Shown: positions 1,822 through 17,638 of the stretch, piece by piece
Layout of the letters: every line of letters begins with the position of its first letter
Numbering within the stretch: position 1 is the first letter of the stretch
Program-made: the position numbers and the translations under genes
Notes under the pieces: generated by a model
The model's database searches: none
Seen by the model: only the letters and a program-made list of their open reading frames with translations
What the model was told of the DNA's origin: nothing
Source of the DNA: Williamsia limnetica
GTDB taxonomy: Bacteria; Actinomycetota; Actinomycetes; Mycobacteriales; Mycobacteriaceae
DNA length: 64,000 nt
Assembly (NCBI RefSeq): GCF_003217475.1
Contig: NZ_QJSP01000019.1
Location: forward strand, 1-64,000
Direction of reading: 5' to 3'

Positions 1822-3228
1822 GTGAAGAATATCGCAACGGTTTCACGAGTGAAAGTATCGGCCGACGGACACGGGGTCCTCTCGCACGCCGGAGTGGGAA
1901 TGGTGCGCGAAGTCGCGGACCTGACCGGTCTGTCCGCGCAGGTCACAGGGGTGTTGGCTGATACCTACCGGGGTCCGTGGTCCCATGCACCGGGTGCGGT
2001 GTTTGCTGATCTGGTGGCCGCGGTCGCCGACGGCGCCGACTGCGTCGACATCGCCGCACAAGCAAGCCGGAGCCGTAGCCGTAGCCGTAGCGCAGTGTTC
2101 GGTCCGGCTGCCTCGACTACCACGATGTGGCGGCTGATCGATGAACGGATCGACGCCGAGCATCTATCTGCGATTCGTACCGCACGTGCCCATGCTCGGG
2201 CGGCGGCGTGGGCTGCTGGAGCCGCACCGGTGACCGAGTGGTTGTGCATCGATGTCGATGCCACCATCACCATCGATCACTCTGAAGGCAAAGAGAACGC
2301 GGCCGCGACCTGGAAAAGAACCTTCGGAATGCATCCGTTGATGGCCTATCTGGACCGACCTGACATCGCCGGTGGCGAAGCGTTGGCCGCGCTGCTGCGA
2401 CCTGGGAACGCCGGAAGTAATACCACCGCCGACCACATCACCGTCCTACATCAGGCGCTGCAATACCTACCGCAGGACTATCAACCCGCGCCAGGTGTTG
2501 GTGATGGACAGAAGATTCTGGTCCGCTCGGACTCAGCCGGCGCCACTCACGGGTTCGCTGCGGCATGCCGCGATGCTGGGGTTGGGTTCTCGTTCGGGTT
2601 CGCCGTCGATCACCGGGTCCGAGAGGCCGTCGAGCACCTCAATGCCACCGCCGGATGGATGCCGGCGATCGATTCTGACGGAGAGGTTCGCGAGGGCGCA
2701 TGGATGGCCGAAGCCACTGACCTGGTCTCGCTCGGGTCGTGGCCGGCCGGGACCCGACTGTTGTTGCGTAAAGAACGCCCTCACCCTGGTGCGCAGTTGC
2801 GGTTCACTGATTCCGACGGGCACCGGATCACTGGGTTCATTACCGACACCCGTCGATCTGTAGTGCCCGGCGGGATGGCCGGACTCGAACTGCGCCATCG
2901 GCAACACGCGCGGGTTGAAGACCGGATCCGTCAGGCCAAAGCGACCGGGTTACGCAACCTGCCCTGCCACCACTTCGATGCGAATGCGGCCTGGCTCGAA
3001 ATCATCTGCGCCGCGACCGACCTGGTTGCTTGGACCAAACTCATCGGCTTCGCCGACGAGCCAGCCTTGGCGCGCTGCGAGATCGAAACCTTCCGCTACC
3101 GGGTCCTGCACGTAGCCGCGAGAATCACCCGCGGAGCCCGAGACATCCGACTCCGCATCGATTCGAGTTGGCAACGGGCACAACAGATCGCCGACGCGTG
3201 GTGCCGAATCCGATGTGCCTTCACCTGA
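1822..3228 (+). CDS. IS1380-family transposase
   Basis: The open frame encodes a 468-residue DDE transposase of the IS1380 family. Recognisable segments are VLSHAGVGMVREVADLTGL near the N-terminus, the CIDVDATIT strand around residue 140 that carries the first catalytic Asp, the RSDSAGATHGF strand with the second near residue 234, and the C-terminal RQAKATGLRNLP block. The length is normal for the family and no stop or frameshift interrupts it, so it may be active. The start is the GTG at 1822, about 125 bp inside the left inverted repeat. Residues 82-92 are a run of Ser-Arg pairs encoded by a hexanucleotide repeat. Confidence 0.85.
   Translation: MKNIATVSRVKVSADGHGVLSHAGVGMVREVADLTGLSAQVTGVLADTYRGPWSHAPGAVFADLVAAVADGADCVDIAAQASRSRSRSRSAVFGPAASTTTMWRLIDERIDAEHLSAIRTARAHARAAAWAAGAAPVTEWLCIDVDATITIDHSEGKENAAATWKRTFGMHPLMAYLDRPDIAGGEALAALLRPGNAGSNTTADHITVLHQALQYLPQDYQPAPGVGDGQKILVRSDSAGATHGFAAACRDAGVGFSFGFAVDHRVREAVEHLNATAGWMPAIDSDGEVREGAWMAEATDLVSLGSWPAGTRLLLRKERPHPGAQLRFTDSDGHRITGFITDTRRSVVPGGMAGLELRHRQHARVEDRIRQAKATGLRNLPCHHFDANAAWLEIICAATDLVAWTKLIGFADEPALARCEIETFRYRVLHVAARITRGARDIRLRIDSSWQRAQQIADAWCRIRCAFT
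2065..2091 (+). repeat. Short AGCCGK hexanucleotide repeat inside IS1380 transposase
   Basis: Four consecutive copies of AGCCGG/AGCCGT plus a partial copy encode alternating Ser-Arg. The unit is a multiple of three, so copy-number change keeps the frame. Confidence 0.8.
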
Positions 3229-3434
3229 CCACGATCTCCCGCCCCAACGACCAGTGAAAGGCAAACCCCGGCCCGCGAAACCGGCACCCACCCGAGCGAC
3301 ATCGGGCAAATCCCCACACCTACACACCGAAAACCGCCCCGGACCACCCAGGCCCGACCGAAACCCGCACACTGAACAACCGGCACGAAAAATCGAGGCT
3401 AACTGACAGGGGTAAAGTTACTAGAAGGTCAAAG

Positions 3435-3653
3435 ATGTCTTTTCTGCTCCGTAGAATTGGTATTACCGATAACCTCATTACCGGAGTCGTAGCGAAAGAC
3501 ATGGACAACGTACTCGCCCTGTTTCGTACGTTCAACGACGGTACTCACGGGCATGCCGGACGCTTTACAATCACCGAGCTGTCAGCGATCCGAACCCGAG
3601 TCGAAGCCGCAATAGCGTTCGTACACGAGATCGTCACCACGCCTCACGTTTGA
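3435..3653 (+). CDS. Small hypothetical protein, possibly the C-terminal remnant of a larger gene
   Basis: The frame encodes 72 residues with a natural, well-folded look: a central DNVLALFRTFNDGTHGH segment followed by an amphipathic helix (ITELSAIRTRVEAAIAFVHEI). A usable ribosome-binding site (AGAAGG) precedes the ATG at 3435. I do not recognise the family. The gene starts only about 30 bp beyond the right end of the IS1380 element, so the reading frame may be what is left of a longer gene whose 5' part was displaced, with a fortuitous start. No neighbour gives a functional hint; it lies between two insertion sequences. Confidence 0.5.
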   Translation: MSFLLRRIGITDNLITGVVAKDMDNVLALFRTFNDGTHGHAGRFTITELSAIRTRVEAAIAFVHEIVTTPHV

Positions 3654-3879
3654 GCTAATCACTGCACGAAGGGGCCCTTTGGCAGGTCGCGTGGCGTTCG
3701 ACAAGAAGTTGACGGCTAGGACCACATCACAGCGGTTATGACCGAGCAACACTCAAATTTTGGCCGTTCACTAAACACATGAGTATTGGACCATGCGCGT
3801 AGTCCTGTGGCGTGTCCCCAGTAGATGAGTCCACGAGGTTTTAGAGTCTTTGTTGCCCCGACCTGGGGTTGGAAGGACG

Positions 3880-4170
3880 ATGAACATCATGGCTGGACGG
3901 AAACGTGACTCCGCGGAGCAGATCGTGCGCAAACTGCGCCAGGGCGACGAGCTGGAGGCGGCCGGTAAGACCTCTGAGGAGATCGCTGCCGAACTGGAGG
4001 TGTCGGTGGCGACGTTGTTCAACTGGCGCCGTCAGTACGGCGGTATGGACACCGACGCAGCGAAGGAGCTCAAAGAGCTCCGGGACCAGAACGGCAGACT
4101 CAAACGGCTGCTCGCCGACGCTGAGTTGGAGAAGGACGCGCTGCGAGAGGTGGCCAAGGGAAAATTCTGA
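3880..4170 (+). CDS. IS3-family transposase OrfA
   Basis: The 96-residue protein has an N-terminal helix-turn-helix (residues about 10-45, with EEIAAELEVSVATLFNWRR) followed by a leucine-rich coiled coil (AKELKELRDQNGRLKRLL), the standard OrfA plan for end recognition and dimerisation. The ATG at 3880 is chosen because GGAAGG lies just upstream; a second ATG at 3889 is possible. The gene ends in GGAAAATTCTGA, where the A-rich run before the stop is a plausible slippery site for the -1 frameshift that makes the OrfAB fusion in this family. Confidence 0.87.
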   Translation: MNIMAGRKRDSAEQIVRKLRQGDELEAAGKTSEEIAAELEVSVATLFNWRRQYGGMDTDAAKELKELRDQNGRLKRLLADAELEKDALREVAKGKF

Positions 4171-4199
4171 GCCCAGCTGCCAAACGCCGCGCCGTCGAT

Positions 4200-5032
4200 A
4201 TGCTCGTAGAAACCAAGGGCATCTCGAAACGGTTGGCGTGCAGAGCTGTTGGTCTTGCCCGTTCCACCTACAGTCGTACCCCGATCGCCCAGACCCCGGC
4301 CGACCCGGACGCTGAGTTGCGTGGTTGGTTGCGGACCTACGCCACCAAACACCCGCTGCATGGGTTCCGGCGGGCGTGGGCGGCGCTGCGGTTCGACGAG
4401 CATCGCGATGTGAACAAGAAGAAGGTGCACCGCCTGTGGAAGGAAGAGGGCCTGCAGGTCCGCATCAACCATCCCCGCAAGCGGGCCGGCGAATCGTCGG
4501 TACCGTTGTCGATGCTGATGCACCGAAGGTGGTGTGGGCTCTGGACTTCCAGTTCGACTCCACGATCGATGGGAAGGCGGTTAAGATCGCGTCGATGATC
4601 GACGAACACACCCGCCTGTCGGTCCTCAACATTGTCGAACGATCGATCACCAGCGACCGGTTGGTTGTTGAGCTGGGCAAGGCGTTTGCGCTGTGGGGTG
4701 GGCCGCCGCAGGTGCTGCGGATGGACAACGGTCCGGAGTTCATTTCCTATGCGCTGCAACAGTTCTGCGACAAGAGGGTCGGTATCTCCTACATCCCGCC
4801 GGGCACGCCGTGGAACAACGGCCACATCGAATCTTTCAACAACCGGCTACGGAAGGAATGCCTCAACCGCAACCACTGGACCAACCTGCTCGAGGCCCGC
4901 GTGGTCATCGAGGACTTCAAAGATGACCACAACCACCGACACCGGCACTCATCACTCGGCTACAAGACGCCGGCCGAGTATGCTGCCCAATGCACCCACA
5001 CCCATCATCCCGTGGAATGCGAGATTGACTAA
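4200..5032 (+). pseudogene. IS3-family transposase OrfB, disrupted by a 1-base deletion
   Basis: This is the integrase-type DDE catalytic subunit. The first part (from ATG 4200, MLVETKGISKRLACRAVGL, HPLHGFRRAWAAL) runs in one frame to about 4500. The catalytic core continues in a different frame: VVWALDFQFDSTIDGK with the first Asp, VLRMDNGPEF with the second, and FNNRLRKECLNR with the Glu. The switch maps to GTACCGTTGTCG near 4500-4510, where GTACCGGTTGTC would restore a continuous VPVVDADAPK, i.e. one G is missing. The second part is also open on its own from 4325. The full OrfB cannot be produced without a corrective slip. Confidence 0.85.
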
Positions 5033-5124: not shown

Positions 5125-6219
5125 TTACTCCGAGAATGTGTCCTTTAGATCGACGCAGAGCGTGTTCCCAAATCGATAATCGAGCAAGCGCTTTCGGTGC
5201 ATTTGATGCACGGCTACTCCCGGCGAGATCCCTACTTGTCTCGCGGCGCGTGCGATATCACCATCCCGCGTAAGACCCCGAAAAGGTTCCATGCCGCTCT
5301 CGCTGAAAAGTGTGTTGAAGGCGAAGTGGTTTGCGCCTTTCTCTGCGGAGCTGGTTCGCCGCTTCTCCGTCTTGTACTCCAGATGCATTTCGCCGCGCGG
5401 GTCGTTGAGCACATGACCAAGTTCATGAAACAAGGTCCAGACCACAAAACCATCTTTGCCCCAACGGCCCGTCTGCTGAATGACCGGAACCCGCTTGTCA
5501 ATCCATCTCGTCATCCCTAGGAGCGGAAAGCTCTTCGGTGGCTCCACAACAACGAAGACAACACCAACATCGGCCAGGAGACCAGCGATGTCGCGCAGCA
5601 TCGTCTGGTCCGGCCGCGCCGCGCGGGTGCGGAGATCAGGCAACGCCGCACGCAGGTCGGTTTCGTCATAGTTGTACGTTCGGCCACGCTCGAAGCGCTC
5701 AGTAAGCTCAGCTGCGCGAAGCCATGTCGTGAGGGCAGTCGGCGCGACGTCGGCACCTGACTCCTTCAGCGCAGCAAGAGCGTAATCGCCTTGCGACGCA
5801 CTCTCGTGGAGGTGCAAATAGACGTCCCACGTGCCGCAACGGTGGAATGCGAGGAAATCAGAGACCAAACGGCCAGGGTTGGCGCGCGTTGCGGTAGTCG
5901 CCCCTAGGCTTCGCAAGTAGGTCGCAGCGTTTGCGTCAATGTCGTCGACGTGGCGCGCTAAGTTCTCCTCGTCGGCTATGCGGGTGAGGTCCGCGCGGTA
6001 CGCCGCTTCGTACCGTAGCCAAGCGTCGGCCGGTATCCGGCTGACCCGTTCCAGCCTTCGCGCGGTTTCCGGCGTTACCGAGGCACGGCCATTGACGATC
6101 TCATTCACGTGTTTTCGGCTAACCCCGAGAAGCTCCGCAGCCTGCTGCTGGGAGAAGCCTTGGTCGTCAATCCACTCCTCGAGATACTCCCCGGGGGCTA
6201 CAGCGTAGTTTGTGGTCAT
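5125..6219 (-). CDS. higA: HigA-type antitoxin fused to an ImmA/IrrE-like metallopeptidase domain
   Basis: The protein has 364 residues. An N-terminal Xre/HigA helix-turn-helix (about 18-60: GFSQQQAAELLGVSRKHVNE) should bind the operon promoter. A long C-terminal domain carries the zinc-peptidase motif HELGH at 265-269 and a downstream EKGANHFA (Glu near 293) as likely third ligand, as in ImmA/IrrE (COG2856). The start ATG at 6217-6219 has a strong AAGGAG site. It lies 12 bp after the toxin gene, so both are one operon in toxin-first order, typical of higBA. Classical HigA is about 100 residues; the fused form is known but less common. The peptidase could process a partner or itself under stress; this is an inference. 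Confidence 0.85.
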   Translation of the reverse strand: MTTNYAVAPGEYLEEWIDDQGFSQQQAAELLGVSRKHVNEIVNGRASVTPETARRLERVSRIPADAWLRYEAAYRADLTRIADEENLARHVDDIDANAATYLRSLGATTATRANPGRLVSDFLAFHRCGTWDVYLHLHESASQGDYALAALKESGADVAPTALTTWLRAAELTERFERGRTYNYDETDLRAALPDLRTRAARPDQTMLRDIAGLLADVGVVFVVVEPPKSFPLLGMTRWIDKRVPVIQQTGRWGKDGFVVWTLFHELGHVLNDPRGEMHLEYKTEKRRTSSAEKGANHFAFNTLFSESGMEPFRGLTRDGDIARAARQVGISPGVAVHQMHRKRLLDYRFGNTLCVDLKDTFSE

Positions 6220-6231
6220 TGGCTTCTCCTT

Positions 6232-6540
6232 TCAGTGGTAGTCGTAGATGTCGATCACCGTCACGGTGACTGCGTCCCAAGGGTCCGAACCGCCTTCGGG
6301 GCGGATCAAGATTCGATAATTACCGCTAAGCTTCCCTGCCCACTCGCCGGCATGATCGCCCGTGAGCTGGTGCCAGTTACCCAGCGGGTCGAGGGTGGCA
6401 AGTTCACCCACCGTGACTGCTGTGCGCAGAGCGTTAACACGTAAGCGGAGTCTGCCGGCGATGTCCCCACGCTTCCTCTGCATCTCCTGCTCGTCCGTGC
6501 ACAGCGTCTCCAGCTTTCGGTTCTCATACAGCACTTCCAA
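6232..6540 (-). CDS. higB: HigB/RelE-family toxin (ribosome-dependent mRNase)
   Basis: This is a RelE-superfamily toxin expected to cleave mRNA on the ribosome. The core EVLYENRKLETLC, the RLRVNALRTA helix and the C-terminal GNYRILIRPE / VTVIDIYDYH strands match plasmid-maintenance killer proteins (HigB) of about 100 residues. The TTG at 6538-6540 gives 102 residues with the family's usual N-terminus. An ATG at 6588 would add 16 residues. The gene directly precedes the antitoxin-protease gene (12-bp gap) and sits in an accessory region full of insertion sequences, as mobile stabilisation modules often do. Confidence 0.8.
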   Translation of the reverse strand: MEVLYENRKLETLCTDEQEMQRKRGDIAGRLRLRVNALRTAVTVGELATLDPLGNWHQLTGDHAGEWAGKLSGNYRILIRPEGGSDPWDAVTVTVIDIYDYH

Positions 6541-7805
6541 CAGGGTGTCACCGATCTCGTTACATTCTAACGCTGGCCGACGACACATTATGCCGGATGT
6601 GACCAAGCAGGCCCACTGGGAGCACGTCACGTGGGATGGCGGCCGCGGACCTAGCGGCGAAAGTGTTCTCTGGAGTCGCCTCCGGCGAGAAGCGGGCGAC
6701 CAGCGGCATCAACACCGTTGGCTGTGTCAGTACGCTCGCGGCGCCAGGTTGAATTACCGTTGGCCGCCCTCCACATCTTGTCCGGATGCTACTTTCTATT
6801 CCAACAATTTCGCGGTGTGGGCGAATAATGCGCCATCTGGCGGTCCAGCGCGTCGAAGACATCGCCGAGATCTTTGAACTCGATTGGCGGCGCGTCGACG
6901 TGCCGCGATGCCGTCGCCGTAGCTGTCGTCATGGTCGACCGCGTTACCGGGGAATCAACGGTCGCAGGGGCCCAAATGCTCCGTTCGAGAACTCCGCTAG
7001 TCCATCGAGTAGCGGAGTCCACGCACGGGTCGTTCCGTCGCGTCGACTCCGCTCGAGTATCCAGCAGTGACGCTCCTCCCCCGCGCCGCAGATCCTCGAG
7101 CTGCTATACCGGGCATCCCGGGCCCCGCGATCTCCTTGGTCACTGCGCGGTCAGGTTCGTGGCAAGTTCGAGCGCTGTCGCGGGCTACGTTCGCGAGCAG
7201 CACCACGTTGCCCTCGCATCGACGACTGCCGCCCAGCGCGGGATCGAGTATGTTGCGAACAACAGGCCGTCGTCGGCGAGGCGTACCGGCAGACGAGCCA
7301 CTGCCCCTAATGGTCGACCCGCCGCCGGGTGTGTAGTCGATGGCCGCACCGACCGCGCCGGGGTGTGCGGCGTTCCAGTCCCAGTCCTCATCGGTCGCCT
7401 AGTCGACGCGGCATCCACCCGCCAGCGGGATCGCATCCGGATACATCTCTGCGAACGCGCCGGCTACCCAGTAATGGCCCGCCACGCCGTGCGGTCACGC
7501 ACAACCAGCGGCTCGGTTCCTGCGCCATCGTCACAGTGACGGGCCGCCTTCGCACCTCAGCAATTTCGGATGACCTCTTGGCTACCATTTCTGCAGGCAG
7601 TTGGCGCTGTATCTGCGCTAATTGGATTTAGCGCAGCCAGGAACGGCAGGTCGGCGCATGCGTCGTCTGAGCACCCACGTTTTAGGCCAGGGCGTTTCGT
7701 ACCAACTCAATATGTCGATAATTGCGTCGACGGTGGGCCCAATCGCTACGCTCAACCCTTGTTACCGGCCGGTAGGTGGCCGCAGGACGATACATCGGGG
7801 GAAAT
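6541..7805. other. Decayed 1.2-kb stretch without an intact gene
   Basis: No reading frame here has a convincing start, length and composition. The minus strand from 6789 to 7022 contains a plausible coding remnant (APPIEFKDLGDVFDALDRQMAHYS). Another short minus-strand stretch around 7330-7490 reads naturally for a few dozen residues in pieces (YPDAIPLAGGCRVD, ATDEDWDWNAAHPGAVGAAIDY) interrupted by a stop. These look like fragments of one or more old genes on the minus strand, but I cannot name a family. The last 250 bp would contain the promoter of the beta-propeller gene at 7806. Confidence 0.5.
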
Positions 7806-9110: not shown

Positions 9111-9950
9111 TCACTCAAAGACAGTCGGCAGCCCGTCCGACACCCGCTGCGGGAATTCCGGCACCCGCTTGTCGAGGAACGCGGTCACCCCTTCTCGCAC
9201 ATCGTCGGAGGTACCGCGGATATAGATGGCTTTCGACTCGGCTCGGTGTGCGACCTCGGGACTGTCGGCACCGAGCATCCGCCACATCAGCTGCCTGGTC
9301 AGCGCAGCCGACACAGGCGCGACGCCTGCCGTCAACTCGGTCGCGACGGCAATCGCGCGATCGAGCACCTGATCGGCCGGCACCAGTTCGCGGACCAACC
9401 CGCGCTCGAGTGCTTCGTCCGCAGTGACCATCTTGCCGCCGATCGTCCACTCGAGCGCGGTGGAAATCCCGACAATGCGCGGCAAGAACCAATTGGAACA
9501 GGCCTCGGGCACCAAGCCCCTGCGGGTGAAGACAAATCCGAACTTCGCAGTGTCGGCGGCGATACGGATGTCGGCAGGCAACGTCATCGTCACTCCAACG
9601 CCTGCGGCCGGGCCGTTGATGGCAGCGATGACCGGCTTGAGCGACCTGAATATCCGGAGACTGACTTGGCCACCCTCGTCGGGCGGCGCATGCCCGGTCC
9701 CCTTGTCGTCGAGCACGAAGGTGTCGCCGCCCGCACCCAGGTCTGCTCCGGCGCAGAACGCCCGACCTGCCCCGGTGATCACAACCGCCCGCACCGAGTC
9801 GTCAGCATCGCACTCGTCGAACGCCTCGATGATCCGGTCATGTATCTCGCTCGTGAAGGCATTGAGCCGATCCGGCCTGTTCAGCCGGACAATCGCTATG
9901 GGCCCCCGACGCTCCAGCTCCACCACATCGCCTGCGCTCGGTACGGTCAC
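9111..9950 (-). CDS. Enoyl-CoA hydratase/isomerase (crotonase) family protein
   Basis: This is a 279-residue crotonase. The oxyanion-hole segments are AFCAGADL (about 65-72) and GPAAGVGVTMTLPADIRIA (about 116-134). The GLVPEAC segment near 148 provides an acidic residue where crotonases carry a catalytic Glu. The GTG start at 9948-9950 follows a perfect AGGAGG. It should hydrate or isomerise an enoyl-CoA within the neighbouring catabolic cluster; the substrate is not evident. It is the last gene of the leftward unit after the MaoC hydratase (57-bp gap). A second, 5'-truncated copy with roughly 80% nucleotide identity by eye lies at 16904-17638 in the same orientation. Confidence 0.85.
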   Translation of the reverse strand: MTVPSAGDVVELERRGPIAIVRLNRPDRLNAFTSEIHDRIIEAFDECDADDSVRAVVITGAGRAFCAGADLGAGGDTFVLDDKGTGHAPPDEGGQVSLRIFRSLKPVIAAINGPAAGVGVTMTLPADIRIAADTAKFGFVFTRRGLVPEACSNWFLPRIVGISTALEWTIGGKMVTADEALERGLVRELVPADQVLDRAIAVATELTAGVAPVSAALTRQLMWRMLGADSPEVAHRAESKAIYIRGTSDDVREGVTAFLDKRVPEFPQRVSDGLPTVFE

Positions 9951-10006: not shown

Positions 10007-11005
10007 CTACCCGCCGGCCGCCAGTGCCGTGAACCGCCAGTCCAGCACCGGTACAGCCCCGTCCTGACCACCGACCACCTCGGCGATAGACCGCAGTCGC
10101 AGCAGCATTGCACCTCCGTCGATCGTTTCGGCAGACTCGACGTGCAGCCGACTTGTAATCGTGTCACCTTCCCGGACCGGACCCAGGTGATCGCACGACT
10201 GCCAGCCGAGGACGGTCACGAGATTCGGCAGCGCCCTGGTCGCCTGCGAAAGTGCGATGCCGATGGTATGCCCGCCATAGACCAGCCGGGAACCACCGTT
10301 GACTCGTGAATCATGATGTGTTGCGGCGATGTTGAGGGTCAATCGGGCCAACTCCGGTGCGCTGGAGACAACATCGGCGCTGCTGCTGAACACTGTTCCG
10401 GCAAGGTCTGTCGAGGTCGTCGGCATCCCCGAGAGATCCCAGCCCTCCGGGATGCCGTAGACAGGTTCGTCGGCCGGACCGATTGCCGACAGGTCGTCGG
10501 CCGCCGACTCGCTGCCGTCGCGCGGTGAATCCGAGAACGGGATCATGGCGCACCGGTAGAAGTCCAGGATCTTGCGGCCGGTCTGATCGACGGTCTCCAT
10601 GCGCAACGCCACCAACCCGGTGGGGCGTCGACCCGGTTTCACGGTGTTCGCTTTGAGCCCAACGACTTCGGTCCGGGTGTCGAGCGAGTCGCCGATGTGC
10701 GGAAAAAGGTGAAACCGCAGACCCCGGTAGAACAGATTCGCCTTCACGTGATGGGTGGCCAGAGTCGATTGGCCGATGGCAATGTCGCAGACCAGCCCGG
10801 GATGGGCGAGTTCAGCTGACCGTCCGGTGATCTCCGCGGACAGGTGCGCATCGAGCGGCAGGCGCAGACGGTCTCCGAGGATGGCCTGATGCATCGCCGC
10901 GGCACCGCTGGTGAGGGTCATCGACGGCGCGGTGTCGAAGACCTGGCCCACTGCCAATTCGTCGAAGTACGGGCCACCGACATCGATCGGATCCGCTTCG
11001 GTCAT
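10007..11005 (-). CDS. Two-domain MaoC-like hydratase, related to mesaconyl-CoA hydratase
   Basis: The protein has 332 residues forming a double hot-dog. In the C-terminal half, RLVYGGHTIGIALSQ is the MaoC hydratase signature region. In the N-terminal half, VVGLKANTVKPGRRPTG and ILDFYRCAMIPF resemble mesaconyl-CoA hydratases of C5-dicarboxylate pathways rather than the short R-specific enoyl-CoA hydratases. It starts 5 bp after the CitE-like gene with a GGGAACTGAG ribosome-binding site, so the two are translationally close and probably act in sequence: hydration of mesaconyl- or itaconyl-type CoA, then cleavage by the lyase. The exact substrate is inferred from context. Confidence 0.72.
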   Translation of the reverse strand: MTEADPIDVGGPYFDELAVGQVFDTAPSMTLTSGAAAMHQAILGDRLRLPLDAHLSAEITGRSAELAHPGLVCDIAIGQSTLATHHVKANLFYRGLRFHLFPHIGDSLDTRTEVVGLKANTVKPGRRPTGLVALRMETVDQTGRKILDFYRCAMIPFSDSPRDGSESAADDLSAIGPADEPVYGIPEGWDLSGMPTTSTDLAGTVFSSSADVVSSAPELARLTLNIAATHHDSRVNGGSRLVYGGHTIGIALSQATRALPNLVTVLGWQSCDHLGPVREGDTITSRLHVESAETIDGGAMLLRLRSIAEVVGGQDGAVPVLDWRFTALAAGG

Positions 11006-11010
11006 GATGC

Positions 11011-11853
11011 TCAGTTCCCTTCTGCCAGTGCCAGCACACGACGCGCCGACACCGCGATCGCCTCATCGAGCATCTGCCCGTTGAGCGCGGCGGCTCCGGC
11101 ACCCTTGGTCTCGGCGTCCGCGAGAGCACCCAGGATTTGTCTGGCCTCTTCGACGGCCTCGGCTGTCGGGGTGAATGCCTGCAGGGTGAAGGCGATCTGG
11201 GCCGGGTGGATGACCCATTTGCCGTCGAAACCGAATTCACGGATCCAGCGGCCCGCGGCCCGGAAGTACTCATCATCGGCGATGGTCAGGTGCGGTCCGT
11301 CGATGGCCGCGATACCGGCGGTCCGGGCGGCGATCAGTATTCGATCCTGAACGGCCGACCACCGGTGCGGCGGAAGATTACGTTCTCGGCCGAGTGCTGC
11401 CGCGAGATCCGCGTAGCCGATGACAATCGCATCCAGGCGGTCAGTCGCGCCACAGATGCCGTCGAGATGGGTGAGCCCGGCGGGTGTCTCGATGAGCGCC
11501 TGCAGACCAGCAGGGTGCGCGCCCAGCGCCTGGTCCGCCGCCCTGAGGTCATCGGCACTCTCGACCTTCGGCACAACCACACTCGACAACGCCCTACCTG
11601 TTGTCGCCAATGCCGCCAGATCGTCGCGTGCCCAAGGCGAATCGATGCTGTTCATCCGGACCGCAAGCCTCGGACCCGAGGTGGCATCGCCTGCGAGCAG
11701 CTCGACCACCAACGCCCGAGCCGCATCCTTCTTCGTCGCGACGACCGCATCCTCGAGGTCCAAGACCACTTCATCAACCTCGAGCGCCAGGGCCTTGTCG
11801 ATCTTCCGGCGGTCGGACCCGGGTACGACCAATACCGACCTGCGTCGTTGCAT
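11011..11853 (-). CDS. HpcH/HpaI-CitE-like CoA-thioester lyase
   Basis: The 280-residue protein is a CitE-type beta/alpha barrel: RSVLVVPGSDRRKI at the N-terminus, VVLDLEDAV (Mg-binding acidic residues) near 30, LAVRMNS (Arg contacting the acyl-CoA carboxylate), VVPKVES, LQALIETPAGL and KWVIHPAQI. This family cleaves malyl-, citramalyl- or beta-methylmalyl-CoA to acetyl-CoA plus an oxo acid. I chose ATG 11853 because GAGGTGAGG precedes it at good spacing; upstream starts at 11880 (ATG) and 11892 (TTG) would run into the operator. It is the first gene of the leftward unit (lyase, hydratase, crotonase), divergent from the GntR gene. Confidence 0.8.
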   Translation of the reverse strand: MQRRRSVLVVPGSDRRKIDKALALEVDEVVLDLEDAVVATKKDAARALVVELLAGDATSGPRLAVRMNSIDSPWARDDLAALATTGRALSSVVVPKVESADDLRAADQALGAHPAGLQALIETPAGLTHLDGICGATDRLDAIVIGYADLAAALGRERNLPPHRWSAVQDRILIAARTAGIAAIDGPHLTIADDEYFRAAGRWIREFGFDGKWVIHPAQIAFTLQAFTPTAEAVEEARQILGALADAETKGAGAAALNGQMLDEAIAVSARRVLALAEGN

Positions 11854-11877: not shown

Positions 11878-11895
11878 CATATGTACGGCCAAATA
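11878..11895 (-). promoter_or_regulatory. Putative GntR operator 1 (near CitE-like gene start)
   Basis: Read on the minus strand, CTATTTGGCCGTACATATG contains the GGCCGTAC core (11883-11890) flanked by A/T-rich positions. It lies 25-42 bp upstream of the chosen start of the lyase gene. It is one of four copies in the cluster. Confidence 0.6.
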
Positions 11896-11951
11896 GTCAC
11901 GGGATTTTTCCTAAATGTCAAGGTGCTGCTTCAAACGGCTGCGGAGGCCCT

Positions 11952-11970
11952 GAATATGGCCGTACAATAT
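11952..11970 (+). promoter_or_regulatory. Putative GntR operator 2 (upstream of gntR)
   Basis: The sequence GAATATGGCCGTACAATAT has its core at 11958-11965, 87 bp upstream of the gntR start. It is inverted relative to operator 1, with 75 bp between core centres. Confidence 0.6.
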
Positions 11971-12056
11971 GCACGTCGGCCGATCACCCCTTCATCCGAC
12001 ACGACGTGTGGACCAGGTTGGTGCAGGCGCATGAGCTGCATAGCATCTGAGGAACC

Positions 12057-12797
12057 ATGACCGGTAAGAAGCGCGAGGCCGAACCCGCCTACCAGGTGTT
12101 GTCCAACCAGCTGCGACAGGACATTGCCGGAGGGCTGTATGACAACGGCGCAAAACTCCCCACCGAGGCTGAGCTCTCCGAACGTTATGAAGTCAGCCGA
12201 CAAACCGTACGACGCGCGTTCGTCGACCTCGTGGCGGCAGGCATCGTCTATCGGGTGCCGGGGCGCGGCACGTTTGTCAACGAATCCGGTGGTCGCTACC
12301 TCCGCCAGCAAGGCTCGATCCAGGACCTGCTGAACCTGTCGACCGACACGACGATGGAAGTGGTCAGCCCCCTGTCCCGCCGCATTGACGTGGAGGCCGC
12401 GAGCCGGCTCCGCCTCGACAGCGATGTCGTCTACACCATGGTCTTCCGGCGCATGCACGACGGAATTCCGTTTGTTCTCACCACGGTGCACCTGCCCGAG
12501 CACACCGCAAAACTGGTCCTGAGTGCGCCGGAGGTTGCCGCCGGCGCAGTCAGCACTTACACGATGATCGGCCTGCTCGAACCCCATCTCGATTCGCCGA
12601 TTTCCGAAGCAGCGCAGTCCATCACGGTCGATGCCGCGAACGGTCTGGATTCCGCGCACCTCGGCTGCACCGAAGGCCACCCGGTCTTGCGTATCGATCG
12701 TCTCTACACCGATGCCGCCGGTGTCGCCCGTGAACTGTCGGTGAGTCACTACCTACCGGAGCACTACACCTACCGGGTGACCCTGCAACGCGCTTGA
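12057..12797 (+). CDS. GntR/HutC-family transcriptional regulator
   Basis: The protein has 246 residues. An N-terminal winged helix-turn-helix (about 10-75: KLPTEAELSERYEVSRQTVRRAFVDL, then GRGTFVNE wing) is followed by a UTRA effector-binding domain (about 95-240), the HutC subfamily layout. It sits in the middle of the catabolic cluster, divergent from the lyase unit and convergent with the CoA-transferase gene. Four copies of one motif in the two divergent promoter regions are its likely binding sites, including one in its own promoter, so autoregulation and control of the whole cluster by a pathway CoA-ester or acid are expected. Confidence 0.85.
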   Translation: MTGKKREAEPAYQVLSNQLRQDIAGGLYDNGAKLPTEAELSERYEVSRQTVRRAFVDLVAAGIVYRVPGRGTFVNESGGRYLRQQGSIQDLLNLSTDTTMEVVSPLSRRIDVEAASRLRLDSDVVYTMVFRRMHDGIPFVLTTVHLPEHTAKLVLSAPEVAAGAVSTYTMIGLLEPHLDSPISEAAQSITVDAANGLDSAHLGCTEGHPVLRIDRLYTDAAGVARELSVSHYLPEHYTYRVTLQRA

Positions 12798-12801
12798 GCG
12801 G

Positions 12802-13956
12802 TCACACCTGAACGCCCAGTTCCCGGCGGATCAGCTCATTGTGCTCGCCCAGCCGGGGTACCGACCCCAACGGGACGTCATCGGCCCCGGCAACAGTCAC
12901 AGGAGATCGGAGACCTCGAGCAGTTCCGGTTTCGGTGTCGACGTCGCGCCATCGGTCACGCGACTGGAGGGCCGGGTGATCGAGCAGCTCGGCCGCCGTA
13001 CGCATCCGGGCGTTGGCGATACCGGCCTGATCGAGTTGCTGGACGACGTCAGCTGACGAACTACGTTGCAGCGCCTCGGTGATGAGCGCATTGAGTGCTG
13101 CCGCGTTCGCGACACGGTCCGGGTTGTGGATGAACCGCTCATCGGTGGCGAGTTCGGGATGATTCAACACGAGCGAGCACAGGGATGCCCACTCTCTGTC
13201 GTTCTGCACCGCCAAGAAGACGGACTGTCCGTCACCACACTCGTAGGGGCCGTAGGGGGCGATCGTTTGGTGGCGAGCGCCGGTGCGCGGCGGAGTCGCC
13301 CCCGAGAAGCCGGCGAGCAGCGCCGGCTGACTCATCCACTCCCCTAGCGCATCGATCATGGCGACCTCGAGCGAAGCACCTTCTCCTGTTGCCTGGCGAT
13401 GGTAGAGCGCAGTCAAAATACCTGTGTAGGTGTACATCCCGGCGGCGATGTCGGCGATGGAGAGGCCGGCTTTCGCGGGTTCATCCGGCGAACCGGTGAC
13501 CGCCAACACGCCCGTTTCGCACTGGATGAGCAGGTCGTACGCCTTCTTCGACTGATACGGTCCCTCGGTCCCGTAACCGGACACGCTGCAATGCACCAGG
13601 TCCGGGTGGTTTTCGCGCAGCGTTCCCGCGTCCAGCCCGAGGCGGTCGATGGCCCCCGGCCCGAGATTGCTGACGAACACATCTGCCCGCTCGATCAGGA
13701 CGTCGAGGACCCGTCGGTCGTCGGCGTTTTTCACATCGAGTTCGAGACTTTCCTTGCCGCGATTGAGCCACACGAAGTAGCTCGATTGTCCGTGCACACT
13801 GTGGTCATAACCGCGCGCGAAGTCGCCGACGCCGGGGCGCTCGATCTTGATGACCCGAGCGCCGAGGTCTGCAAGCTGACGGGTGGCGAAGGGCACGGCA
13901 ACGGCGTGTTCGAGCGAGACGACGGTGATGCCGGCGAGAGGCTGAGCTGAGGTCAT
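12802..13956 (-). CDS. CaiB/BaiF (class III) CoA-transferase
   Basis: The protein has 384 residues with the family's N-terminal GITVVSLEHAVAVPFATRQLADLGARV and IERPGVGDFAR. The NLGPGAIDRLGLD segment precedes the SVSGYGTEGPY region, and the catalytic aspartate lies near AGLSIADIAAGMY (about 169). The enzyme transfers CoA between carboxylic acids with no ATP cost, probably activating the cluster's acid substrate. In itaconate degradation of pseudomonads this family supplies itaconate CoA-transferase; that role here is inferred. The gene follows the acyl-CoA dehydrogenase with 9 bp between, so the two form a unit, and it converges on gntR with a 4-bp gap. Confidence 0.85.
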   Translation of the reverse strand: MTSAQPLAGITVVSLEHAVAVPFATRQLADLGARVIKIERPGVGDFARGYDHSVHGQSSYFVWLNRGKESLELDVKNADDRRVLDVLIERADVFVSNLGPGAIDRLGLDAGTLRENHPDLVHCSVSGYGTEGPYQSKKAYDLLIQCETGVLAVTGSPDEPAKAGLSIADIAAGMYTYTGILTALYHRQATGEGASLEVAMIDALGEWMSQPALLAGFSGATPPRTGARHQTIAPYGPYECGDGQSVFLAVQNDREWASLCSLVLNHPELATDERFIHNPDRVANAAALNALITEALQRSSSADVVQQLDQAGIANARMRTAAELLDHPALQSRDRWRDVDTETGTARGLRSPVTVAGADDVPLGSVPRLGEHNELIRRELGVQV

Positions 13957-13965
13957 CGCCGTCTC

Positions 13966-15120
13966 TCAGATGCCGCCGCGGGAGACCAATTGGCCCGCTA
14001 TGACGTTGCGCTGGATCTCGTTCGTTCCCTCGCCGACGATCATCAACGGTGCATCCCGGAAGTAGCGTTCGACGTCGTATTCGGTCGAGTACCCGTAGCC
14101 ACCGTGAATACGAACTGCGTTGAGCGCGATCTCCATCGCGATCTCGGAGGCGAACAGCTTGGCCATGCCCGCTTCCATGTCGCACCGTTCGCCCGAGTCG
14201 TATTTCTCGGCCGCGTAGCGGGTGAGTTGACGGGCGGCGGTCAGTTTCGTGGCCATGTCGGCGAGGTAGTTGCCGATCGACTGATGCTTCCAGATCGGCT
14301 TCCCAAAACTCTCGCGCTGCTGCGCATAGGCCAGCGAATCCTCCAGCGCCGCAGTCGCAACACCGAGCGCACGGGAGGCGACCTGGATCCGACCTGTTTC
14401 CAGGCCCTTCATCATCTGGGCGAACCCCTTGCCCGGGGTGCCGCCGAGGATGGCCGTCTGTGGGACGCGGCAGTTGTCGAAGGAGAGCTCACACGACTCG
14501 ACACCCTTGTAACCCAGCTTGGGCAGATCCCGCGACACCGTCAGTCCCGGTCCGTGTTCGGCCAGCACGATCGAGATTCCTGCGTGTCGGGGCTGGGCTG
14601 TGGGATCGGTCTTACACAGCAACGCGATCACCCCCGACCGACGCGCATTGCTGATCCACGTCTTCGACCCACTGATCACAAGGTCATCGCCCTCGGTCTT
14701 GGCAACCGTCGTGAGGGCTTGCAGATCGGATCCGCCGCCCGGTTCGGTCAACGCCATCGTCGCCCGCATCTCCCCGGTGGCCATGACGGGCAAATACTTC
14801 TGCTTCTGCTCGTCCGTGCCGTACAGCGCGATGAGTTTGGCCACCACCGTGTGTCCACCCATGGCACCGGACAGACTCATCCAACCCCGCGCCAATTCCT
14901 CGGTGACCGCGACGTAGCAGGGCATCGACACCGGCGACCCACCGTAGGCCTCGTCGATCGCCAGACCGTAGATACCGATCTGCTTCATCTGCTCGATCCA
15001 TTTCTCCGGATACTCGTTGGCCTTCTCAACCTCCCGTACCGACGGCTTCACCTCGCGGTCGACGAAGTCGCGAACAGTCCGCACCAGCATTGCTTCTTCG
15101 TCGTTCAGGTTGTAGCCCAC
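13966..15120 (-). CDS. Acyl-CoA dehydrogenase
   Basis: This is a flavin-dependent acyl-CoA dehydrogenase of 384 residues. Family signatures are ALTEPGGGSDLQAL (FAD/substrate loop, about 128-141), ISGSKTWISN, FGKPIWKHQSIG, and the C-terminal IHGGYGYSTEYDVERYFRDAP and VGEGTNEIQRNVIAGQL. The GTG at 15118-15120 is chosen for the GGAGG 6 bp upstream; the longer frame would begin with a TTG at 15132. It is the first gene of the leftward dehydrogenase/CoA-transferase unit and is divergent from the hydrolase at 15297. Saturated dicarboxylyl- or branched acyl-CoA is a plausible substrate. Confidence 0.88.
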   Translation of the reverse strand: MGYNLNDEEAMLVRTVRDFVDREVKPSVREVEKANEYPEKWIEQMKQIGIYGLAIDEAYGGSPVSMPCYVAVTEELARGWMSLSGAMGGHTVVAKLIALYGTDEQKQKYLPVMATGEMRATMALTEPGGGSDLQALTTVAKTEGDDLVISGSKTWISNARRSGVIALLCKTDPTAQPRHAGISIVLAEHGPGLTVSRDLPKLGYKGVESCELSFDNCRVPQTAILGGTPGKGFAQMMKGLETGRIQVASRALGVATAALEDSLAYAQQRESFGKPIWKHQSIGNYLADMATKLTAARQLTRYAAEKYDSGERCDMEAGMAKLFASEIAMEIALNAVRIHGGYGYSTEYDVERYFRDAPLMIVGEGTNEIQRNVIAGQLVSRGGI

Positions 15121-15140
15121 GTGATCCTCCAAGACAGAAA

Positions 15141-15159
15141 GTTTGTACGGCCATATTCG
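15141..15159 (-). promoter_or_regulatory. Putative GntR operator 3 (near acyl-CoA dehydrogenase start)
   Basis: On the minus strand CGAATATGGCCGTACAAAC shares GAATATGGCCGTACAA with operator 2. The core is at 15145-15152, about 25 bp upstream of the chosen start codon, as for operator 1 and the lyase gene. Confidence 0.6.
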
Positions 15160-15212
15160 CGTGACGGAGCCCGTCTGTCAATATTCGCAGCCAAAGTGGA
15201 TCGCTGACCGCA

Positions 15213-15231
15213 GTTTTTGGCCGTACATTTA
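15213..15231 (+). promoter_or_regulatory. Putative GntR operator 4 (upstream of hydrolase gene)
   Basis: GTTTTTGGCCGTACATTTA has its core at 15219-15226, 71 bp upstream of the hydrolase start. It is inverted relative to operator 3, with 74 bp between core centres. Confidence 0.6.
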
Positions 15232-15296: not shown

Positions 15297-16115
15297 ATGG
15301 ACCACTCCTCCTCGAGCACGCCGCGCCACCGCACCGTAGAGACCACCGACGGTGCGATGCTCGCCGTACAAGAAGGCGGACCCGCCGACGGACCGCCGCT
15401 GCTCCTTTTGTCCGGTCAAGCCAACTCACACGACTGGTGGACGGGCATTCGCGATCACTTCGAGGGGCGTTTTCACACGATCACGTTCGACTACCGCGGC
15501 ACCGGGGCCAGTCGCGCCGTGGAGTCCCCCGGCTGGTCGACCACGCTGTTCGCCGATGACGCAGTACAGGTGTTGGAGTCCGTCGGTGCCGACTACGCCC
15601 ACGTCTACGGCACTTCGATGGGTGGCCGAGTCGCACAAATGCTCGCCATCAACCACCCCGCAGCAGTGGAGCAACTGGTGCTCGCGTGCACGACGCCGGG
15701 TGGAACTCTCGCCGTCGAGCGCGACAACAACGTTCGACGCGCTCTGGCACAAAAAGATTCGCACGCCAGGATCGCTGCGCTCCTGGATCTCATGTACACG
15801 CCGGCCTGGTATGCGCCGGGTAGACGAAGCCACCTGCTGGGAGATCCCGACATGTCGGCCCGTGCACAGTTACTTCATCTGAAGGTCAGCGGCAGCCATG
15901 ACGCCGTCGACCGGCTCTGCGAGATACGTTCGCAGACCCTGATCCTGCATGGCAGCGACGACCGTATGGCCCCAGTTGTCAACGCCCACAACCTCGGCGA
16001 CGCCATTCGGGAGGGCCGTGTCGACATCACCGCGGGTGGTCGGCACGGCTTCTTCGACGAGTTCGCCGACGCTGTCTCAGCTCAAGTCATACAGTTCCTC
16101 GACCACGGCCTGTGA
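15297..16115 (+). CDS. Alpha/beta hydrolase
   Basis: A 272-residue alpha/beta-hydrolase-fold protein. The oxyanion region is LLLLSGQANSHDWW, TFDYRGTGAS follows, and the nucleophile elbow is YGTSMGGRVAQ (Ser near 106). The acid is likely in ILHGSDDRM (about 218-226) and the His in GGRHGFFDEF (about 252). The family includes esterases, lactonases and 3-oxoadipate enol-lactonase-like enzymes. Within the cluster it could release the acid that the CoA-transferase activates, but this is only contextual. It is divergent from the acyl-CoA dehydrogenase and shares an operator-bearing promoter region with it. Confidence 0.8.
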   Translation: MDHSSSSTPRHRTVETTDGAMLAVQEGGPADGPPLLLLSGQANSHDWWTGIRDHFEGRFHTITFDYRGTGASRAVESPGWSTTLFADDAVQVLESVGADYAHVYGTSMGGRVAQMLAINHPAAVEQLVLACTTPGGTLAVERDNNVRRALAQKDSHARIAALLDLMYTPAWYAPGRRSHLLGDPDMSARAQLLHLKVSGSHDAVDRLCEIRSQTLILHGSDDRMAPVVNAHNLGDAIREGRVDITAGGRHGFFDEFADAVSAQVIQFLDHGL

Positions 16116-16903: not shown

Positions 16904-17638
16904 CTAGTCGAAGACCCGTGGCAGTCCGGCCGACACCTTTAGAGGAAATTCCGGAACCCGCTTCTCGAGAAACGCCGCGACCCCTTCGCGAACATCGTCG
17001 GACGTTCCGCGTACGTAGATGGCCTCGGACTCCGCACGGTGGGCCACTTCCGGACTCTCAGCGCCGAGCATCCGCCACATCATTTGCCTGGTCAAAGCCA
17101 CCGAGACCGGTGATGTGCCGCAGACCAGGTCAGTTGCCACCGCAATCGCCCGGTCGAGAACCTGGTCAACCGGCACCACCTCCCGCACGAGACCTCGTTC
17201 GAGAGCCTCGGACGCCGACACTATCTTGCCGCCGACAGCCCATTCCAGCGCCGTGGAGATGCCGACAACCCGAGGGAGGAACCATGTCGAACATGCCTCC
17301 GGCACCAGACCCCTCCGGGTGAAGACGAAGCCGAACTTCGCAGTCTCCGAGGCGATTCTGATGTCAGCGGGCAGACTCATCGTGACACCTACGCCGGCAG
17401 CAGGGCCGTTGATCGCGGCCACCACGGGCTTCGTCGACCGGTAGAGACGCAGGGCAACTTCCCCACCGGAATCTGCGGGTGCGCCTCCGGTCTCCGGGTC
17501 GTCGTCGAGGACAAAGGTGTCGCCACCCGCCTCCAGGTCTGCTCCGGCGCAGAAGGCTCGCCCCCTGCCGGTCAGAACCACCACCCGAATCGAGTCGTCC
17601 GCATCGCACTCATCGTTGACCCAGCAGCGCAAACCCAC
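16904..17638 (-). pseudogene. Crotonase paralogue lacking its first ~44 residues
   Basis: The frame matches the crotonase at 9111-9950 from DECDADDS onward (AFCAGADLEAGGDTFVLDD, GPAAGVGVTMSLPADIRIA, FTRRGLVPEACSTWFLP) to the same C-terminus. The N-terminal strand-helix, including the RLNRPDRLNAF region that holds part of the CoA site, is missing. Homology ends abruptly where the palindromic element begins (about 17622-17629). The open frame reaches a GTG at 17638 only through element sequence (GLRCWVN), which is unrelated to crotonases. A stable functional enzyme is unlikely. It could be a deletion or insertion scar. Confidence 0.8.

Follow-up and report, generated by a model that had tools for sequence, protein, structure and literature searches.

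Conserved candidate operators of a HutC-type GntR regulator beside acyl-CoA catabolic genes in Williamsia limnetica and its relatives

The first 64,000 nucleotides of contig NZ_QJSP01000019.1 of Williamsia limnetica (assembly GCF_003217475.1; the whole stretch analysed, hereafter the window) hold a gene for a GntR-family regulator (gntR) among genes of acyl-coenzyme A (acyl-CoA) metabolism, in the order maoC and citE (leftward), gntR (rightward), caiB and acdh (leftward), and abh (rightward). In the two divergent intergenic regions, near 12 and 15 kb, an initial annotation had noticed four copies of one motif and read them as the mark of one GntR regulon with a symmetrical two-promoter design. 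Are these copies operators of this regulator, and what is the meaning of their geometry? Judging from sequence comparison, the HutC/UTRA-type GntR very probably acts through conserved operators as a repressor of gntR itself and of a set of acyl-CoA catabolic genes. The motif, its conservation, its co-occurrence with gntR and its position with respect to a -35-like box at acdh are read directly from the sequences.

The 10-mer TGGCCGTACA occurs in four exact copies in the two regions, and within each region one copy lies on the minus and one on the plus strand (O1 to O4, Table 1), which agrees with the places and the opposite orientation noticed initially. The paired copies start 75 bp apart in the 12-kb region and 74 bp apart in the 15-kb region, also as reported. 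The likely start codons of the leftward genes, ATG at 11853 for citE and GTG at 15120 (after GGAGG) for acdh, are 28 and 23 bp from the nearest copy, so the earlier estimate of 25–40 bp holds if some latitude in the start codon is allowed. In the genome (6.35 Mb, 52 contigs), the exact 10-mer is found 23 times, and each of the 19 copies outside the two regions has A/T at no more than four of its six flanking bases. At the rate of these 19, the number expected in the two regions (376 intergenic bp) is 0.001, and the probability of at least four is about 7e-14. We also scanned the whole genome with the 16-bp pattern WWWTGGCCGTACAWWW, allowing at most one mismatch, and five places were detected, i.e. 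the four window sites and C29:24248, which lies inside a 638-aa open reading frame; only the four window sites are outside long open reading frames. Beyond the four sites, the genome holds one place with one mismatch and 12 with two over the 16 bp, and the reversed pattern gives 8 in all. One of the places beyond the four, C19:3758, is itself in the window.

The initial annotation had named lack of conservation upstream of orthologous clusters as what would refute its regulon reading, and phylogenetic footprinting found the motif conserved there. Searching with the GntR protein gave 47 loci, 17 of which (L024–L040) are close orthologues with 64–97% identity; the nearest named relatives of the window genome are Williamsia. 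The motif is carried by clusters of Williamsia, Gordonia, Rhodococcus, Tomitella and more distant members of the order. Next to the cluster, each of the 17 loci has one or more exact cores, and in 15 of them the citE/maoC side carries a site that departs from the core by one base or none (the exceptions are L034 and L037). Three loci (L024–L026) have a split layout like the window, and in the other 14 (L027–L040) a single divergent region holds the site(s), with maoC, usually together with citE, on one side and acdh followed by gntR on the other. When no motif was chosen beforehand, GGCCGTAC and TGGCCGTA were the most common 8-mers, each present in 34 of 34 orthologous intergenic regions, and TGGCCGTACA was present in 32 of 34. 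The record of L028 is titled Kitasatospora arboriphila, contains a Williamsia-like cluster with a GntR 83% identical, and is probably a mislabelled genome.

In order to compare, 298 genomes of the order were divided into 25 with gntR (E ≤ 1e-40) and 273 without, counted by genome with kinship ignored; gntR may be missed in some of them because only the best nine candidates per genome were scored, whereas a second search of five genomes scored every candidate. The exact 16-mer exists in 20 of the 25 gntR-positive genomes versus 1 of the 273 gntR-negative ones, and in this single genome (G087) a GntR protein (31%) adjoins the site, with a CoA transferase (36%) also present. Upstream of acdh, a site with at most one core mismatch is found in 14 of 14 gntR-positive family genomes counted; there are 15 in all, including G230, which was left out and has as its acdh a 74% homologue from a different operon. 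As a negative control, 22 acdh loci (at least 80% identity) from 21 gntR-negative family genomes were summarized, and such a site within 350 bp was detected in only 2 of 22. For these counts, acdh was matched in 29 of 39 genomes and loci were available for 30 of 33 matches, those outside being G148:C31 (81%), G254:C12 (73%) and G297:C1 (72%). Six acdh loci with 65–74% identity (L167–L172), not among the 22, have no site with at most one core mismatch. In gntR-positive genomes the motif also appears far from gntR, for example in G079 and G107 at CoA transferase pairs that lie on different contigs from gntR, at a maoC about 158 kb away in G230, and at acdh-citE-maoC about 141 kb away in G254 (one core mismatch). 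The idea of one GntR regulon is upheld by this comparison, in that the motif tracks the presence of a gntR orthologue across genomes.

The position of the site in the promoter indicates how it may act. In acdh promoters outside the type of g2 (a large genus, which we take to be Mycobacterium), TTGACN is located 22–25 bp before the core T in 19 of 19 cases (22 bp in 15, 23 bp in three, 25 bp in one). Considering all 30 acdh promoters, 18 have TTGACN at 19–24 bp, compared with a mean of 0.63 and a maximum of 3 in shuffles. At a distance of 22 bp, a spacer of 17 nt places the last base of the putative -10 hexamer on the first core base. The acdh operator therefore reaches from the end of this hexamer over the start region, where a repressor would sit, and since it starts on the last base of the putative -10, a HutC/UTRA-type repressor is the best explanation. 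GntR might also act as an activator, as the motif is oriented toward the genes. However, the acdh site overlaps -10/+1, and activators seldom work from such sites. Moreover, the HutC relative NagR blocks transcription, according to the accessible part of one report (PMC4333415), and activation is in our estimate very unlikely. Similarly, the motif could be a promoter element (an extended -10 or start region) rather than an operator, given that it overlaps the putative -10 and start region at acdh and points toward the adjoining gene at all four window sites; but it is missing at 20 of the 22 acdh loci of gntR-negative genomes, its exact 16-mer occurs in 1 of 273 such genomes, and both sites of a pair have the same direction in 78 pairs of the genus g2, which makes a promoter element extremely improbable. 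In five g2-type loci (L094, L096, L097, L099, L101), an ATG that may be the acdh start codon falls inside the core or directly behind it, which suggests leaderless acdh messages there.

Several observations weigh against repression by GntR. No TTGACA-like box is found at the expected place before the gntR or abh sites (0 of 4 each), nor is such a -35 found in 11 g2-type acdh promoters, and on the citE side TTGACN is at the expected place in only 4 of 16 sites (24 bp upstream, in the window lineage). In principle, a site placed at the start region could also be bound by an activator or by some other factor. The core is asymmetric, with half-sites TGGCC and TGTAC, and GT-N4-AC of HutC is present on one side only. 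If one mismatch is allowed, the 16-mer is detected in 24 of 25 gntR-positive genomes and also in 36 of 273 gntR-negative ones. Finally, G021 (L147) and G293 (L146) keep a site with 0–1 core mismatch about 57 bp upstream of acdh, and a dedicated search with all candidates scored found no gntR orthologue in either; another regulator or a recent loss of gntR may account for this. These two genomes, together with the distance of about 141 kb between gntR and acdh in G254, would suit a different regulator that binds the motif while gntR is a mere neighbour. However, this has little probability in view of the co-occurrence (20 of 25 versus 1 of 273), the sites at distant CoA-transferase, maoC and acdh promoters of gntR-positive genomes, and a helix-turn-helix stretch of GntR that is invariant along with the motif (no search for other regulators was made).

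The regulator itself is consistent with repression of its gene neighbours by GntR. Its N-terminal part is a GntR winged helix-turn-helix (PF00392, 2e-19, 69.4 bits versus a cut-off of 27), and its C-terminal part is a UTRA domain (PF07702, 1.7e-15, 57.5 bits versus 23.8). The stretch SRQTVRRA in the helix-turn-helix is invariant across 39 regulators with 43–100% identity, which fits the invariant operator core. The predicted structure (mean pLDDT 84.8) is nearest to YvoA/NagR in Foldseek, with DasR and PhnF among the best matches, and the TM values against the full-length chains of YvoA, DasR and PhnF are 0.45–0.59 (by query length). GntR scores below the NCBIfam cut-offs of the named HutC equivalogs, the best being PRK11402 (82.5 bits versus 269), followed by Rv0792c (81 versus 400), HutC (75.6 versus 220) and PhnF (73.5 versus 156.8). 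NagR/YvoA, DasR and PhnF are thus similar to GntR in domain make-up and fold, and a repressor released by a metabolite is the probable mode in all of them. Their targets are aminosugar or phosphonate genes, whereas those here are acyl-CoA genes.

The operator differs as well, being T-GGCCGTAC-A here and GTMTAKAC for HutC repressors in the accessible part of PMC4494728, where exceptions within HutC are also listed. Compared with the HutC pattern NyGTMTAKACNy, the AC arm of GGCCGTAC fits, the GT arm reads GG, and the centre is CG instead of TA; this is no bar to membership of the HutC subfamily, because the subfamily rests on the C-terminal domain. Among 71 distinct sites, the dyad fits best with its axis between C5 and G6, with A/T arms outside and 0.52 of the compared pairs complementary (next best axis 0.44), and counts within the core are biased because the sites were picked by at most one core mismatch. 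A similar box is that of AraR, a GntR-family protein of Bacillus subtilis whose operator is AtWtGTaCGTAcaaWT and which binds cooperatively to two in-phase operators with a small loop, as described in the available portion of PMC4218819. Its dyad and A/T outer arms are the same as here, and two core bases of one half differ; unlike in the AraR system, the present operator is asymmetric and pair distances vary widely. The effector domain of AraR is of another kind. In the literature searched, mostly at the level of titles and listings, no description of the motif or its regulator was found.

As for the geometry, the symmetrical 74/75-bp design does not stand as a conserved feature: O4 is retained in L024, L025 and L026, the three closest relatives, at 138, 76 and 138 bp from O3. 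A recent duplication, by which one of the two regions would derive from the other, was considered as the source of the equal distances and rejected, as the motif-masked alignment score is 18 against a shuffle mean of 20.6; this is weak evidence, because the acdh-abh region hardly aligns even with its own orthologues (scores 29, 37 and 33; shuffle maxima 34, 36 and 33). Across relatives the two operators are 54 to 153 bp apart. We scanned 401 family genomes for divergent pairs 60–181 bp apart (matches in 50 and 32 genomes), fetched 87 stretches and kept 85 of 88 pair rows, leaving out L259 and L286 (G/C-rich flanks) and a secondary pair of L221. Most pairs (67 of 85) lie between acdh and citE/maoC, with distances of 65, 85–90, 97–101, 110, 127–133, 143–144 and 153 bp, and on the acdh tree at least 11 changes between these spacing classes are needed. 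In L098 (G183) and matches in G834 and G824, the site nearest acdh has seemingly moved about one helical turn downstream, and its former position holds ATATGGCTGACA, apparently a decayed copy. Twelve of the 85 divergent pairs, 108–119 bp apart, form another set at other loci (L236–L244, L247, L249, L254), with neighbours such as a 54% CoA transferase (L247) and 39% acyl-CoA dehydrogenases (L249 and L254).

The seven class centres have a best period of 11.0 bp, also in a scan from 6 to 20 bp (R 0.91, or 0.93 with an extra 142-bp spacing), where classes, separated by gaps of more than 3 bp, were drawn after the values had been seen and phase was first hinted on 13 spacings. A tree-aware simulation of indel drift for the 67 acdh-citE/maoC pairs gives P of 0.003–0.006 with the best period within 10–11.5 bp and 0.036–0.045 with the period fixed at 10.5 bp. 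The tree was modelled for these 67 pairs only, and the other phase tests treat classes or distinct values as independent. In plain random placement, P is 0.001 to 0.019 for the seven classes, depending on the minimum gap, and from below 0.001 to 0.213 when every pair is taken, which adds 74, 75 and 142 and makes ten classes. Control distances in the same regions (site to start codon, start codon to start codon) have no such period (R 0.14–0.27 versus 0.59 on distinct values). Another 78 pairs, with both sites in the same direction, come from the genus g2 (396 genomes) at 54–57, 65–70 and 77 bp, 56 of them at 57 bp; 79 had been matched, one 30 bp apart with G/C-rich flanks was dropped, and most are known by sites alone. 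Their phase agrees with that of the first set (P 0.003 at 10.5 bp and 0.027 at 11.0 bp, distinct values treated as independent). The spacings of 118–119 and 138 bp fit an 11-bp rule poorly.

The two sites may instead be fully independent, one per promoter without looping, and the phasing a side effect of the small number of lineages or of the way promoters are packed. Spacing rises with intergenic length (r 0.82, slope 0.55), and growth of this kind is the pattern of separate sites, each for its own operon, in the accessible part of PMC4494728; by that measure each site here would serve its own operon. A single matching site in 5 of 11 g2-type loci (L094, L096, L097, L099, L101) also favours independence. 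However, the classes are about 11 bp apart and the control distances in the same regions are not, and we give full independence an even chance. For the same reason, in-phase and possibly looped cooperation is plausible, and both may hold, with one operator per promoter plus in-phase contact. Looping or paired action as first proposed thus stands in part: pairs tend to keep helical phase, a moderate and indirect support, and a fixed distance is not kept. Selection on helical phase rather than distance across the family of the window, taken to be Mycobacteriaceae, in which pairs 54–153 bp apart in steps of about 11 bp let two GntR dimers touch via a small loop and a half-degenerate operator couples the switching of two operons, is a tentative proposal that we put somewhat below an even chance.

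From the above, we infer binding, repression, autoregulation, an inducer, looping and a substrate in the following scheme. A GntR dimer would bind the 16-bp site WWWTGGCC|GTACAWWW, one per promoter, at its own gene, citE-maoC, acdh-caiB and probably abh, and each site would serve the adjoining gene. At acdh, the site would extend from the last -10 base over the start region, and RNA polymerase is proposed to be blocked because of this cover. The UTRA domain might bind a metabolite of the pathway, perhaps a dicarboxylate or its CoA ester, and GntR would then leave the DNA. Looping between paired operators is possible, and since the sites of a pair tend to helical phase, cooperation or a small loop is likely, as a secondary effect.

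The products of the putative regulon are listed in Table 1. FadE3 and Rv0216, which we take to be mycobacterial proteins, are very strong PDB matches to acdh and maoC; the maoC product presumably has a double-hotdog fold, and the next match of acdh, 6es9, labelled acyl-CoA dehydrogenase in the search output, is presumably a methylsuccinyl-CoA dehydrogenase. Among 18 loci examined (L024–L041), abh adjoins the cluster only in L024–L026. The enzyme set suggests activation, oxidation, hydration and cleavage of a short dicarboxylate, possibly catabolism of a C5-dicarboxylate (methylsuccinate-like). The substrate is a guess, because citE and maoC score below the curated cut-offs of RipC (170.4 versus 375) and RipB (23.9 versus 340) and no crotonyl-CoA carboxylase/reductase exceeds its cut-off. 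The ethylmalonyl-CoA pathway was tried and rejected in this connection, as the best genome match to TIGR01751 (crotonyl-CoA carboxylase/reductase) is 76.4 versus 378.55 bits. The itaconate/methylsuccinate cluster of Pseudomonas/Cupriavidus, in the available portion of PMC12290011, likewise combines a CoA transferase, an acyl-CoA dehydrogenase, a hydratase and a C-C lyase; it differs from the present set in its MmgE/PrpD family member, for which the ten window proteins scanned gave no match, and in RipB and RipC. The word "regulator" is absent from the main text of that paper as available.

Table 1. Positions of candidate operators, putative promoter boxes and genes in the window.
Feature	Position	Strand	Description
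Operator O1, TTTGGCCGTACATAT type	11882..11891	-	citE promoter; exact match
Operator O2, ATATGGCCGTACAATA	11957..11966	+	90 bp before gntR; exact match; conserved in L024–L026
Operator O3, ATATGGCCGTACAAAC	15144..15153	-	acdh promoter; first base is last base of putative -10
Operator O4, TTTTGGCCGTACATTT	15218..15227	+	69 bp before abh; exact match
Putative -10 GACTAT, citE-maoC promoter	11893..11898	-	17-nt spacer from TTGACA
Putative -35 TTGACA, citE-maoC promoter	11916..11921	-	TTGACN also 24 bp upstream of core in L024–L026
Putative -10 GAATAT, acdh promoter	15153..15158	-	17-nt spacer from TTGACA; last base shared with O3
Putative -35 TTGACA, acdh promoter	15176..15181	-	TTGACN likewise before core in related acdh promoters
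gntR, HutC-type regulator, 246 aa	12057..12797	+	GntR helix-turn-helix and UTRA domain
maoC, Rv0216-like hydratase	10007..11005	-	PDB match 2bi0 "Rv0216", 397 bits; next 8hgn, beta-methylmalyl-CoA dehydratase, 74 bits
citE, HpcH/CitE-type C-C lyase	11011..11853	-	family profiles; best PDB match malyl-CoA lyase 4l9y
caiB, class III CoA transferase	12802..13956	-	Pfam 7.8e-110
acdh, acyl-CoA dehydrogenase, FadE3-type	13966..15120	-	PDB match 4iv6 FadE3, 642 bits; next 6es9, 285 bits
abh, alpha/beta hydrolase	15297..16115	+	family profile; probable further target

Outside these features, two similar enoyl-CoA hydratases (9111–9950 and 16904–17638), which share their best NCBIfam subfamily, flank the regulon. 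By eye, transposase-like open reading frames (one large and a two-frame IS3-like pair) lie at 1822–5032, and a HigA-like antitoxin frame with a small HigB-like frame upstream on the same strand lies at 5125–6630.

In summary, the motif is a well conserved operator candidate of GntR/HutC type with a small regulon, and repression by promoter occlusion is likely. In the literature searched, partly at listing level, no regulator of FadE3- or Rv0216-type genes is named, and the locus offers a testable regulator, an operator and a likely pathway for them. The site and its regulator, present or lost jointly, are a clean case of co-evolution, and the many independent changes of spacing are a natural experiment on helical phasing between operators.

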